A stretch of DNA of 27,814 nucleotides from a virus. Under the pieces are notes generated by a model that made no database searches, had not been told where the DNA came from, and saw only the letters and a list, made by a program, of their open reading frames with translations. The position numbers and the translations under genes are program-made. The stretch is taken from positions 1 through 27,814 of the IMG/VR virus record IMGVR_UViG_3300044699_000059. One strand, given 5' to 3'. Positions 8,861-14,744 of this stretch are shown piece after piece; the stretch's first letter is position 1; every line of letters begins with the position of its first letter.

Positions 8861-9751
8861 ATGGCGAATGAACCGAGCGGGTCCGCACCCAGCGGGCAAC
8901 CCAGCGGTGCTCCATCAGGAACGCCTGCCTCGCCAGTCGTTTCTGATTCTTCGTGGCTGTCCGGTCTGCAAGATGCAGGGAACCGCGACCTCGTTACGAA
9001 AAAGGGATGGGACAAGTCCAACTCACCGGACGTCGTAATCAATTCGTACCGTGAGCTGGAAGGTCGTCTTGGTAAGGCCATTGTCATTCCCGACGCAAAT
9101 GCGCCGAGGGAAGACTACGACAAGGTCTATACCGCCTTGGGGAAGCCCAAGACACCCGGGGACTATGCTTTCAGATTGCCCCAAGGTGTTCAGGAGAACT
9201 TCCCGTACGACGATGCCTTTGCGACCGAGTATAAAAACTGGGCGCACGAGGCCGACCTATCCCCCAGACAGGCGCAGCACGTTCACGACCGATTCGTTCA
9301 GCGGTTCGACAAACAGCTCAAGGATTCGGAAGAGGGCATGAAGCGTAAGGTGGGCACAGCCCATCAGGAAATCCTGTCGAAGTGGGGTCCTACCGACAGC
9401 GACGGTTACAAGAGCAATCTTGACCACGCCAAGGCGGGCCTTCGGGGTCTGGGTCTATCGGATACTTTCAAGGCGGCAGGTCTCATCGACCAGAACGGCT
9501 CGATTGCGGACGCAAAACTCGCTTTCGCGCTGGCGACGGTCGGTGAGGGGCTTTACCGGGAAGACAGACTGCGCGGCGGTGGACCGGGGTCTTTCACGAA
9601 CGCGAATCCGTGGAAAGACGGTCAGGAAAACCTCACCGAGCAGGGTCGCATCACCCGCGAGAATCCGGAACTAGCCCGGTCGCTCATTCAAGCCGCAGGT
9701 AAAGACCCCGAGAAAGCCTTGTTCAAGAACAGGTTTGGTAGGGACCAGTAG
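8861..9751 (+). CDS. Putative capsid scaffolding protein
   Basis: A 296-residue acidic protein with a Ser/Gly/Pro-rich start (about residues 1-28), a conserved WLSGLQDAGNRDLVTKKGW segment, then VINSYRELEGRLGKAI, a proline-glycine turn region (PKTPGDYAFRLPQG) and charged helices to the end. This order is typical of podovirus capsid assembly or scaffolding proteins, which shape the procapsid and leave before DNA packaging. Position directly before the major capsid gene supports the call. A strong GGAGGAATAAAG ribosome-binding site precedes the ATG at 8861, as expected for a highly expressed assembly protein. Confidence 0.75.
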   Translation: MANEPSGSAPSGQPSGAPSGTPASPVVSDSSWLSGLQDAGNRDLVTKKGWDKSNSPDVVINSYRELEGRLGKAIVIPDANAPREDYDKVYTALGKPKTPGDYAFRLPQGVQENFPYDDAFATEYKNWAHEADLSPRQAQHVHDRFVQRFDKQLKDSEEGMKRKVGTAHQEILSKWGPTDSDGYKSNLDHAKAGLRGLGLSDTFKAAGLIDQNGSIADAKLAFALATVGEGLYREDRLRGGGPGSFTNANPWKDGQENLTEQGRITRENPELARSLIQAAGKDPEKALFKNRFGRDQ

Positions 9752-9757
9752 CCAAAG

Positions 9758-9796
9758 GCCATGAGCGGCCACCACCAAATGGAGTCCGCTCATGGC
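9758..9796 (+). promoter_or_regulatory. Hairpin spanning the capsid start codon
   Basis: GCCATGAGCGG (9758-9768) and CCGCTCATGGC (9786-9796) form an 11-base-pair perfect stem with a 17-base loop. The capsid ATG (9792-9794) lies in the right arm and the GGAG ribosome-binding site (9781-9784) in the loop. The structure starts just after the scaffold stop, so ribosomes finishing scaffold would disturb it, suggesting coupled or timed capsid translation. It might also protect or terminate a transcript. Sequence evidence is firm; function is inferred. Confidence 0.65.
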
Positions 9797-10805
9797 TGTT
9801 ACCAGACTATCCGACGCAGTCATTCCGGCTGTGTTCGTCCCGTACATGCTCAAAGAAACGATGACCAAATCGGCCATCTTTCAGTCGGGCATCCTGCGGC
9901 AAGACGCCCAACTGTCGAGCTTCCTCAGTGGCGGCGGTCAGACGGTCAACGTGCCGTTCTGGAACGACCTCTCTGACACCTCGACGGCGAACATCTCAAG
10001 CGATGACCCGGCGGTAACCGCCGCGCCCGACAAGATCGTCGCGGCACAGGACATCGCCGTCCGCAACAACCGCAACAAGGCATGGTCGGACGCAGACCTT
10101 GTCTCCGAACTTGCGGGCGACGATCCGATGAAGCGCATCTCTTCGCGCGTCTCATCGTGGTGGGCGCGTGAGTTTCAACGCTATCTCGTGTCCGTATTGC
10201 GCGGCGTGATCGCCAACAATATCGCGATCAATGCTGGCGACATGACGGTCGTAATCGGAACCGACGCGACCGGCGCTCCGGCTGCGGCTGAAAAGGTCTC
10301 GGCCAACGCCATCCTCGACGCGGCCCAGACGATGGGTGACGCCTCCGACGTGCTCGATACGATCATCATGCACTCGGTCGTCTACACCAATCTGGCGAAG
10401 CAGAACCTGATCGACTTCATTCCGGACAGCGAAGGCAAAGTGCGCTTCCCGAGCTATCTGGGCTATCAGGTCGTAAAAGACGACGGCTGTCCGGCGGTCG
10501 CTGGCACCAACCGCATCATGTACCACACCTATCTGGTCGGAAAGAACGCGCTGGGCTGGGCGGAAGTCCCGCCTGACGTGCCGGTCGAGACGTTCCGCTA
10601 TCCCGCGCAGGGCAATGGCGGCGGCGTCGAAGAGCTGTGGACGCGGCGTCAATTCGTGATGCACCCGTACGGCATCAAGTGGACGTCGAATACGATGGCT
10701 GGCCGGTCTCCGACCGATGCGGAGCTGCGGACCACGGCCAACTGGCAGCGTGTGTATGCCGAGCGCAAGCAGATACCGATTGCCTGCCTGCAGACCAACG
10801 GCTGA
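9792..10805 (+). CDS. Major capsid protein (gp13-like HK97-fold family)
   Basis: A 337-residue protein matching the gp13-like major capsid family. The opening VTRLSDAVIPAVFVPYM is followed by KSAIFQSGIL, a PFWNDLSD segment, then the N-arm/E-loop-type region and SSWWAREFQRYLVSVLRG (about 118-135). A late ALGWAEVPPDVPVETFRYP region and HPYGIKWTSN match the family's C-terminal beta domain. These proteins form the icosahedral shell in tailed phages. It differs from T7 gp10 although the tail genes are T7-like. The ATG at 9792 is within a hairpin, and a strong stem-loop follows the stop. Confidence 0.88.
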   Translation: MAVTRLSDAVIPAVFVPYMLKETMTKSAIFQSGILRQDAQLSSFLSGGGQTVNVPFWNDLSDTSTANISSDDPAVTAAPDKIVAAQDIAVRNNRNKAWSDADLVSELAGDDPMKRISSRVSSWWAREFQRYLVSVLRGVIANNIAINAGDMTVVIGTDATGAPAAAEKVSANAILDAAQTMGDASDVLDTIIMHSVVYTNLAKQNLIDFIPDSEGKVRFPSYLGYQVVKDDGCPAVAGTNRIMYHTYLVGKNALGWAEVPPDVPVETFRYPAQGNGGGVEELWTRRQFVMHPYGIKWTSNTMAGRSPTDAELRTTANWQRVYAERKQIPIACLQTNG

Positions 10806-10811
10806 CGGGGT

Positions 10812-10823
10812 TACTCGCGAGTA
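10812..10823. repeat. 12-base perfect palindrome after capsid gene
   Basis: TACTCGCGAGTA reads identically on both strands and directly abuts the stem-loop at 10824-10858. It could be part of a terminator/processing element or a protein-binding site. No function can be assigned from sequence. Confidence 0.5.
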
Positions 10824-10858
10824 GGACGATCCGGCGTTTCGGCAGCGCCGGATCGTCC
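10824..10858 (+). terminator. Stem-loop after capsid gene, probable terminator
   Basis: GGACGATCCGGCG (10824-10836) pairs perfectly with CGCCGGATCGTCC (10846-10858) across a 9-base loop, giving a 13-base-pair GC-rich stem. It lies 19 bases after the capsid stop, the same place as the main T7 terminator after gene 10. No U-run follows, so it may act as a leaky terminator, an RNase-resistant end or a processing site. It would lower expression of the tail genes relative to capsid. Confidence 0.65.
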
Positions 10859-10890
10859 ATCAATCATGCCGAAATGCCAAGGAGCCGAAC

Positions 10891-11103
10891 ATGGCAAAGA
10901 AAGAACCGGATGGTACAGTCACGCTGCTCGAAGCGAATCGCAACTACATGGAAGGCAACAAGGAAGTCGAGAAGCAGATGGGCGGCGCACAGCGGGCAGC
11001 TCACCGCGCCATCGACATAGCCTTCGGACGAACCGGCGCTCGCGGCAACGTGCGAGAGCAAAAGCCGCTTCGCTCCGTTCCGCAGGAAGAGACCGGACAA
11101 TGA
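10891..11103 (+). CDS. Small hypothetical protein after capsid
   Basis: A 70-residue, polar, Lys/Arg/Glu-rich protein, probably helical in the middle (TLLEANRNYMEGNKEVEKQM, then AQRAAHRAIDIAFG). I do not recognise it. The ATG at 10891 follows AAGGAG with ideal spacing, and it ends with an ATGA overlap into the next gene. It may be a minor head component, going by position between capsid and tail genes. Confidence 0.6.
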   Translation: MAKKEPDGTVTLLEANRNYMEGNKEVEKQMGGAQRAAHRAIDIAFGRTGARGNVREQKPLRSVPQEETGQ

Positions 11104-11889: not shown

Positions 11890-14237
11890 ATGCCCGGACC
11901 GCTTTACCCACTCCAGCCAGTCTTTGCGCGTGGCGAGCTGTCTCCCCGTCTTTTCTCGCGGGTCGACATCGACCACTACAAGATGGGGCTGGCCGAGTGC
12001 GTGAACTGGCTGGTCATGAAGCAGGGCGGGCTGCGCCGCCGCCCCGGCACCGAATGGATAAACTTCAGCAAGACGCTAGGCCACAAGATCAGGCTGGTGA
12101 GGTTCGTCTTCTCCACCTTGCAGGCTTACGTTCTGGAGTTTGGCGATCACTACGTCCGCTTCTACGCGAACGGCGGGATACTCAGCAAAAGTACCGAAGT
12201 CGGCATCACCTTCAGCATCACTCCGACCAACACCGTGAACTGGACGGCGCATGGGCTGGCCGTCAACGACCCGGTTCAATTCTCGACCAATGGTGTGCTG
12301 CCCGCGCCGCTGATGCTGGGCACGACCTACTACGTCAAGACGGTTGTCGACGCCAACCACTTCCAGATTTCAGCAACCCCCGGCGGGGCGGCGATCAACA
12401 TGACCGCTGCCGGAAGCGGCGCTTTCGCCGGTCTGTCCGCAATCGAGCTGGCAACGCCGTATGGCATTGCCGACATCTGGAAGCTGCAATTCGCGCAAAG
12501 CGCGGACGTGCTCTACATCGCGCATCCCAATTTTCAGCAGCAGATGCTGTCGCGCTTCACGGGGAGCCTGTTCTCCTTAATTCCGTACACGGGCTTCGAT
12601 GGTCCGTACCTGCCGGAGAACACCACGCCGACCACGATGGCCCCGAGCGCCACGGCTGGCATCATCACGGTCACGGCCAGCGGCATTACTGGCATCAACG
12701 GCAACACCGGCTTTCACGCTTCCGACGTCGGACGCTGGGTCAGCGTCAAATACTCGAACAAGTGGTACGGCATCAGGATTACCGCCTATACCAGCACAAC
12801 GCAGGTGCAGGGCGACGTCGTTGGTCACATCGACGATAAGGGCAATCAGGTCTATATCCCCGATGGCGCGGGACCCACCGCAGGCTGCGGCTGGGCGCGT
12901 GGTCGCAGATCACCGGTTATCCGGGCTGCGTCACGTTCTACCAGCAGCGGCTGGTCTGGGCGCGGTCCGACACCCAGCCGCAGACGCTGTGGTTGAGCAA
13001 GGCGGGCATCCTCGACAACTTTGCCCAGACCGTCCCGATGCAGGACGACGACGCGCTGACGCTCACCATCCTTGCGGGCGAGGTCAACGCCATCTCGTGG
13101 ATTGTGGAAGGGCAGGACCTGCTCATCGGCACCAACGGCGCAATGCGGACGGTCGGTCCGGCGGACGCTGGCAAGAACTCGGCCCGACCAATTTCATGCA
13201 GAAAAGACAGTCGACCTTTGGCTCGATTGACATTCAGCCGGTGCAGGTCGCGGAAGTGGCGATCTACCCGAGCTATTACGGGCTGTCTTTGCGGGAGTTT
13301 CTGTTCAACTTTCAGGTCAACGGCTATGTCTCGCCGGAGCTTACGATTCTGTCCGAGCACATGCTGCGGACCGGTATCAAGCAGATGGCTTACGCGCAGG
13401 ACAAGGACGGCATCATCTGGAACGCGATGGGCAACGGCGAGCTGGTCGGCATCACCTATGATCGCGACCAGCAGATCGTGGCCTGCCAGCGACACCGCAT
13501 TGCAGGCAAGGTCGTCGGTGTTCCCAGCGTTCCAAATCCGGACAACCCGGAGGAGATTTCCCCCGATACGCCGTGGGGCATCGTTGAGAGCGTTGCCACT
13601 ATCCCGGGCCTTGATCGTACCGAGGTCTGGATTTCGGTGCGGCGGACCATCAACAGTGTCGACTGGCGCTACATCGAGCGCCTGACCATCACGTTTGAGG
13701 GGATGCCAAAGGAAGACGCGGTCTTCCTTGATTCCAGCTTCACCATTGACGGTGGTCCGTACGCCACGGTTTCCGGGTGAACTGGCTGAGAAACGAGACT
13801 GTCGGCCTTCTTGCGGACGGCGCTGTTCTGCCGGAAGTCGTGGTCAGCCCGACCGGGGTGGTCACCCTGCCTGAAGGCAAGTCGGCTGACAAAATCACCT
13901 CCGGTCTCAATTATGTTTCGCGGGCAAAGACCCTGCGGATGGCACAAGGCCAGCAGGACGGCACCGGCTGGGTCGACGCAAAAACATTGTCTCGGCAAAT
14001 ATCGACGTGATGGAGACGGGGTACCTCGAAGTCGGCTCTCCCTCTGCCCGCGAACTTCAGTAAAGGTTGGCCTTCGGGGTGTTGCGACGAGATGGATACA
14101 TCGCCGCCGCTGCACGATGGTATCTTCGCCTACCGATTCGACCGCTCATGGCGGGACCAAGGGCAGATCGTTCTTCAAACCGATAAGCCCCTGCCTGCTA
14201 CGATCAGATCAGTCACACGGTCTTTGATCCGGAATAG
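11890..14237 (+). CDS. Tail tubular protein B, T7 gp12-like (frameshifted)
   Basis: The tail nozzle protein. Signs are the start PLYPLQPVFARGELSPRLFSR, GGLRRRPGTEW, DVLYIAHPNF, and further on TFYQQRLVWARSDTQPQTLW, QSTFGSIDIQPV and ETVGLLADGAVLP. The C-terminal part (HDGIFAYRFDRSW, KPLPATIRSV) is also typical. The span equals about 782 residues (T7 gp12: 794). It is broken by successive one-base losses near 12886, 13179, 13778, 13983 and 14060-14085, with a last one near 14214; restoring one base at each gives a continuous family-like protein. The exact end (TAG at 14235-14237) depends on this. An extra beta-rich insert lies at about residues 102-186. Confidence 0.85.
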
Positions 14238-14248
14238 GAGACTGTCTT

Positions 14249-14744
14249 TTGTGCGTCATGGCCTTGGGAGTTGTCGTCGGCATCATTGGAGCAGTCGCTT
14301 CAGCCGCTGGCAGCATCGCGGCAGGGCAGGCGCAGGCGCAAGCCTCGCGGGCGCAGGCAGACGCCTATCGAAGACAGGCCGAGCTTGAAAGACAGCAGGC
14401 CGACTACAACGCCCGCCAGCAAGAGCACAAGGCCATCAAGCTTATATCGCAGCAGCGGTCGTCGTATCTTGCGGCTGGGGTCTCGCTCTATGGCACCCCG
14501 ATGGACGTCATCGACGACAGCACCTTGCAGTCCGACCTCGACGTGCAGGCCATCCGCTACAACGGGAAATAAAAGCGCAGAACTTCGACATGCAGGCGCG
14601 GGCGCTCGACGTGAAAGCGTCAGGCGCTGAGAGAGCCGAGCCATCGGCGCTATCGCGCCTCTCATAAAGGGAGTAGGCGGAGCTTTCGGCCCCGGCGGTG
14701 GTGGGGGTTTCAACTTCGGCGGTTCTACCAGCGTGGATACTTAG
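14249..14744 (+). CDS. Internal virion protein, T7 gp14-like (frameshifted)
   Basis: About 165 residues when two single-base losses (near 14566 and 14639) are repaired. It opens MCVMALGVVVGIIGAVAS, matching the MCWM opening and hydrophobic start of T7 gp14. A long Gln/Ala/Arg coiled-coil region follows (about 27-70), then LISQQRSSYLAAGVSLYGTPMDV and a Gly-rich end. gp14-type proteins leave the virion first and form the outer-membrane part of the DNA ejection channel. Translation starts at TTG 14249: GGAGA at 14237-14241 is well spaced for it, while the ATG at 14258 would be too far. Confidence 0.75.

Follow-up and report, generated by a model that had tools for sequence, protein, structure and literature searches.

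Assembly of the tailed-phage head needs a controlled scaffold-to-capsid ratio, and to our knowledge the setting of this ratio at the RNA level has been worked out for few dsDNA phages. Among phage genes with an RNA element in the initiation region, soc of T4 is a capsid gene, and mom of Mu has the element at the start site, with the zinc-finger protein Com as activator.

In the selected passages of the papers cited here, several hairpins that act on translation initiation are described. The T4 genes e, soc, 49 and I-TevI carry hairpins in their initiation regions, and sequestration of the Shine-Dalgarno (SD) sequence or the AUG lowers 30S binding (PMC3014915); in e and I-TevI late promoters in the 5' strand of the hairpin by-pass it (PMC3014915). 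For MS2 a coat-gene hairpin, the replicase operator and translational coupling are reported (PMC9894550), for Mu an RNA element that, with Com, gates translation of mom (PMC6483171), and for B. subtilis sigG a small conserved hairpin that occludes the ribosome binding site and tunes output 2-4 fold (PMC5942855).

Here we analysed a hairpin located on the start codon of the major capsid gene in a stretch of viral DNA of 27,814 bases (the window). We propose, with a probability of about 0.6, that it is a cis-acting RNA element on the scaffold-capsid mRNA that locks the translation initiation region of the capsid gene. Judged from predicted folds and sequence comparison, the hairpin probably holds back and meters capsid synthesis.

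Genes around the junction

The window is a complete copy of its virus record; its relatives are as long as 48-49 kb, so that it is probably part of a larger genome. The group to which it belongs is a family of uncultured tailed phages. On the plus strand the ORF starting at 9792 (9792-10805, 337 aa) encodes the major head protein, matching phrog_247 with E=3e-106 and the Pfam family Gp13-like, which comprises the relatives of SPP1 gp13. It is preceded on the same strand by a scaffold-like gene (8861-9751, stop codon TAG at 9749-9751) positioned between the portal module and the capsid gene. The product matches phrog_3742, a family of unknown function, and gave no direct match to a scaffold; tblastn yielded weak matches, one annotated 'scaffold' and several 'protease'. 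The AlphaFold model of the protein is all-helical with a mean pLDDT of 54, and a fold search starting from this model was rejected because this value is too weak. From the position of the ORF and the low-confidence all-helical model we infer that it may encode the scaffold. The preliminary description had placed the hairpin immediately after the scaffold stop: the position stands, as only a spacer of 6 nt (9752-9757, plus strand) separates the TAG from the stem, while the gene is better called scaffold-like.

Some further features of the window were noted. A perfect 13-bp hairpin lacking a T run (10824-10858) begins 18 nt past the capsid stop and is possibly a terminator or a 3'-end stabiliser; strong hairpins 3' of the capsid stop, often of other sequence, are found in 7 of 9 relatives examined and are absent in L018/L021. 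The phrog_376 tail protein is broken across several overlapping frames (11890-14388), and at this place L002 and L013 have a single open frame of at least 576 aa; the split frames are frameshifts or sequence errors in the window record. Another perfect 11-bp inverted repeat, with a loop of 34 nt, is located at 2308-2363.

Predicted structure at the capsid start

The 5' arm GCCATGAGCGG (9758-9768) and the 3' arm CCGCTCATGGC (9786-9796) form a perfect 11-bp stem on the plus strand, just as the preliminary description had it, with the capsid start codon (ATG, 9792-9794) lying in the 3' arm. The loop of 17 nt (9769-9785), in which C9769 is conserved and 9770 is C or U, contains the SD sequence GGAG (9781-9784), located 7 nt before the ATG. 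Folding of 9740-9830, proposed earlier as a check, gave a minimum free energy (MFE) of -32.7 kcal/mol, corresponding to z = -2.7 relative to dinucleotide shuffles, 3 of 200 of which were as good. In the ensemble the capsid AUG is fully paired (P near 1.0) and the GG of GGAG is paired with P of 1.0 and 0.99, most relatives being similar. The partner of this GG (9781-9782) is C9769-C9770 in the consensus structure and C9772-C9773 in the MFE structure of the window. As the GG pairs with loop cytosines, SD and AUG are both predicted to be hidden. The idea that the SD sequence is exposed in the loop and allows ribosomes to load before the stem opens thus does not agree with the predicted structure, in which it is sequestered together with the start codon.

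In Markov sequences 0.5 stems of at least 11 bp with a loop of up to 40 nt are expected per window, and the window has three, among which only the repeat at 9758-9796 contains a start codon. The low expectation and the unique overlap with a start codon favour the earlier claim that such a stem is unlikely by chance at this place. Opening the capsid initiation region costs 21.9 kcal/mol, more than for any other of the window's 18 candidate gene starts; this is suggestive but not decisive alone because 6% of ATGs picked at random from the window cost as much. It is conservation, not energy, that decides that the hairpin is real: although those 6% would be compatible with a chance inverted repeat, compensatory changes keep the pairing in independent lineages, as detailed below, and render the probability of a chance repeat negligible.

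Conservation in the window clade

Relatives of the capsid and scaffold genes were taken from IMG/VR contigs and gave an alignment of 12 distinct junctions, the capsid DNA being 75-87% identical to that of the window where compared. The 9-bp core (9760-9768/9786-9794) is paired in all 12 sequences. For core and inner helix together, 100% of 132 cells are paired (mean of the shuffles 97.7%), the covariation score is 0.226 (0.172 in shuffles) and double changes occur in 4 cells as compared to 1.0 expected, in agreement with direct reading of the alignment; in each case 0 of 500 shuffles reached the observed value, a control that overstates the support because the aligned sequences are related. 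When the registers of the alignment were slid, only 25-49% were paired.

Two pairs underwent double changes: 9768-9786 (G-C, G.U or A-U) changed from G-C to A-U in both L003 and L017, and 9764-9790 (A-U or G-C) from A-U to G-C in L006/L015. Pairs 9761-9793 (A-U or G.U) and 9767-9787 (G-C or G.U) vary on one side. The remaining core pairs (5/9) are invariant and therefore uninformative. In the capsid tree, several backbone supports of which are low, L003 and L017 lie on different branches and are not sisters, indicating at least three compensatory events. The covariation in related phages which the preliminary description had named as a possible confirmation was hence detected.

Every non-Watson-Crick pair of the core in the 12 sequences is a G.U pair on the sense strand and none is A.C, which argues for a sense-strand RNA structure. 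The repeat is, of course, also inverted in DNA, and CATG is self-complementary, so that a palindrome acting at the DNA level, for example as the binding site of a regulator, was considered. This has only a marginal chance of being correct, given the bias towards G.U and the joint sequence changes of the two arms; the sequence of a protein site would be expected to stay constant.

The 5' arm carries a start-like codon (ATG or GTG) at 9761, which in the window begins an ORF of 71 codons (9761-9976). It might open a leader or overlapping ORF, making the pairing a by-product, as all 12 sequences have a start-like codon here with an ORF of at least 61 codons, and in 10 of them it lies 1 mod 3 from the capsid ATG. 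Such a codon must arise, however, wherever the arm pairs with CAUG, pairing alone would account for the A-to-G change at 9761, an SD sequence at a usable distance is absent and L018 and L132 do not keep the frame. We regard this explanation as highly improbable and rejected the upstream-AUG leader ORF because its reading frame is not conserved.

Beyond the core the junction is variable. The lower pairs are not conserved (9759-9795 is unpaired in 7/12), the distance from the 5'-arm AUG to the capsid AUG ranges from 28 to 37 nt with changing loop length, and the position of the scaffold stop and the sequence surrounding it differ between relatives, the arms staying paired throughout. The loop cytosines (CC) and the GG are conserved within the clade consensus. 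Across the clade the start codon pairs with upstream sequence with P=0.92 as compared to 0.33 for shuffled leaders. The comparison thus supports selection for an RNA structure that covers the capsid start.

This variability also bears on a switch by transcript origin of the T4 e/soc type, where long transcripts would be locked and a late promoter within the 5' strand would give rise to unlocked short ones. Such a switch would account for high capsid output, and passages of PMC3014915 describe it for phage hairpins of the same layout. Nevertheless, we see but a slim chance for it here: no sigma-70-like promoter was detected in 9500-10900 in a search for this promoter type, and the scaffold coding sequence that precedes the hairpin is unrelated in L018/L021 and L132, which keep the hairpin. 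Searching six clade records for a single-subunit (T7-type) phage RNA polymerase gave no match, and the control was also without a match.

A covariance model of the element (R1) found one element per clade record, at the capsid start, the extra matches being antisense shadows and weak ones (E=0.29 in the window, E=0.43 in G007); in the records of a second clade, described below, it found none. Rfam gave no match above the gathering score in the window and 19 related loci. Comparison of the DNA pattern GAGCGGCC N6-26 CGCTCATG with viral contigs revealed no new homologue among the matches listed; one match that was traced, L209, is on the same contig as the clade member L004.

Start-codon hairpins outside the clade

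Phages of the second clade (L023-L052, L300 and others), related at 53-64% protein identity, possess a different start-codon stem of 7 bp, [A/G]GCCATT/AATGGCT, which is sited 15-30 nt upstream of the capsid start and has GAAAGG in its loop. One pair is compensatory, with both sides changed in three sequences. Start-codon pairing has a mean P of 0.63 in this clade and 0.30 in shuffled leaders, but is uneven, with P below 0.15 in 5 of 17 sequences. A further 35 gp13-type leaders, those of SPP1, Shewanella phage 3/49, AXL3 and ART among them, stay at background (0.34 vs 0.37 in shuffles), and the hairpin is absent from the nearest outgroup (L022/L256/L268), indicating that the device is lineage-specific. 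Either the start-codon hairpin arose repeatedly or it was lost in between.

Cleavage at intercistronic hairpins is common in phage structural operons. The element could accordingly be a hairpin for RNA processing or stability, i.e. an RNase III site or an exonuclease barrier, that overlaps the start codon incidentally; besides the frequency of such cleavage, the second strong hairpin 3' of the capsid stop in most relatives would fit this explanation. We consider it very unlikely, as 9 paired core bp are few for an RNase III site, the SD-AUG region lies at the centre of the core in 12/12 sequences, and in the second clade the capsid start codon is likewise enclosed, but by another stem.

C-AUG-R hairpins in Queuovirinae-like siphophages

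In Queuovirinae-like siphophages with capsids about 40-43% identical to the window capsid, the gap between the scaffold and capsid genes, about 120-180 nt in length, contains hairpins with variable, covarying stems and a constant short loop, C-AUG-G or C-AUG-A (C-AUG-R). In 75 distinct loci these hairpins form two clusters. Counted from the capsid start, one is located at about -1150 to -980, adjoining the upstream side of the scaffold gene, and the other at -170 to -50. The hairpins are strongly enriched over controls: permuted loop motifs are near zero in the same loci, and ATG is the most enriched loop triplet in the leaders, with 43 hairpins as compared to 3 for the median triplet. The imperfect stem pairs (17 G.U, 2 A.C and 9 others) point to RNA, given the excess of G.U over A.C. 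At least one such hairpin is present in the isolates Roseobacter phage RDJL3 (L335), Pseudomonas phage PaMx25 (L453), MiCath (L452), R7M (L449), ALK (L456), CA8 (L457), EC151 and K4PH164 as well as in loci L386, L393, L418 and others, and none was found in Siara, HD01, Iggy and MMDA13 at the threshold used. Sphingomonas phage MMDA13 (L460), which is cultivated, has a perfect 12-bp stem CCATGGGACAGG/CCTGTCCCATGG around its capsid start codon (about 1350-1406), unrelated in sequence to the window hairpin.

In many Queuovirinae-like loci the capsid start CCATGGC can be paired with a proximal CCATGG instead. P exceeds 0.8 in 59% of the leaders but in 14% of the shuffles, and the 12-bp stem of MMDA13 is a version of this pairing. 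The window clade has no short-loop hairpin with CATGG or CATGA at the threshold used, 9761 giving only a 4-bp GGCC/GGCC stem. Rfam gave no match for the C-AUG-R hairpins, and the open-access literature searched (titles, abstracts and selected passages) yielded no description of them. They have the look of an RNA element, or a binding site for a protein, that is new to the literature searched, and they are perhaps a more novel lead than the window hairpin.

How the hairpin may act

In the proposed mechanism the 3' arm covers the start codon and the small inner helix the SD sequence, so that the hairpin would block access of the 30S subunit to the capsid start. Ribosomes would less often start independently (de novo) at the capsid gene, so that capsid protein would appear later and in an amount tied to that of scaffold. 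To lock the virion's most abundant protein this strongly would be a paradox unless the lock can be opened in some way.

Opening by ribosomes that terminate at the scaffold stop had been suggested in the preliminary description. In 10 of the 12 sequences the stem core begins 6-11 nt from the stop codon, about where a terminating ribosome would have its leading edge. As this edge would reach the stem base in these, it is plausible that such ribosomes help to open the stem, which might result in partial translational coupling. In L018/L021 (2/12), however, the core begins 19 nt past the stop and is out of reach, and with the first 11 nt past the stop occluded about 7-22 kcal/mol are still needed to open the site, making coupling by melting geometrically weak. 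Coupling may play a part but does not account for the whole, and protein binding or a throttle that acts constantly deserve to be considered as well.

The hairpin might alternatively be an operator, stabilised or opened by a phage protein (capsid, scaffold or another one) in a feedback on capsid synthesis, in the manner of the coat protein on the MS2 replicase hairpin or of Com on Mu mom. A stable conserved hairpin over a start codon, with CC and GG conserved in its loop, would suit this role, a lock needs a key where the coupling geometry is weak as in L018/L021, and the constant C-AUG-R loops on variable stems in Queuovirinae-like phages are as expected for protein sites. Yet within the window clade loop sequence and length vary and leave no constant unpaired recognition motif, C-AUG-R arrays are absent, and no candidate RNA-binding protein came to light. 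We therefore rate the operator as unlikely, though worth keeping in mind. Still more doubtful is a generalisation by which phages with SPP1-gp13-type capsids would share RNA-level metering of scaffold and capsid translation, the window clade using one hairpin on the start codon and Queuovirinae-like phages a C-AUG-R array before both genes that would be bound by a phage protein and whose proximal copy could swap to pair with the capsid start codon.

The covarying hairpin, sited exactly on the capsid start codon, missing from near relatives and differently built in a second clade, is a concrete element that can be tested. Along with the C-AUG-R hairpins seen in cultivable Queuovirinae-like phages, it opens RNA control of head-gene expression to direct test.

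Comparison with known systems

The window element was not found described in the open-access literature searched (titles, abstracts and selected passages). The following comparisons refer to the passages of the cited papers that cover the respective hairpins. Like those of T4 e, soc, 49 and I-TevI, the window element has the SD sequence and/or the AUG in a helix (PMC3014915). Unlike in T4 e and I-TevI, no by-pass promoter of the sigma-70 type was seen in the window, and unlike in the T4 set the hairpin is located on the major capsid gene directly behind a scaffold-like gene. With MS2 it shares a start-codon hairpin that would set translation and, possibly, coupling to ribosomes of the upstream gene and binding of a virion protein (PMC9894550). 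MS2 is an ssRNA phage, however, in which coupling depends on ribosomes passing through a long-range partner, whereas in the window the upstream gene ends before the hairpin. Mu mom is similar in having an RNA element at the start site. Translation of mom is gated with the help of Com, a known trans-acting factor (PMC6483171), in which it differs from the window hairpin. The sigG hairpin differs in being bacterial, having a stem of 5 bp and residing in a 5' leader (PMC5942855), whereas the window hairpin lies between two genes. The window element thus joins a known kind, the initiation-region hairpins, with a placement on a major capsid gene directly behind a scaffold-like gene.
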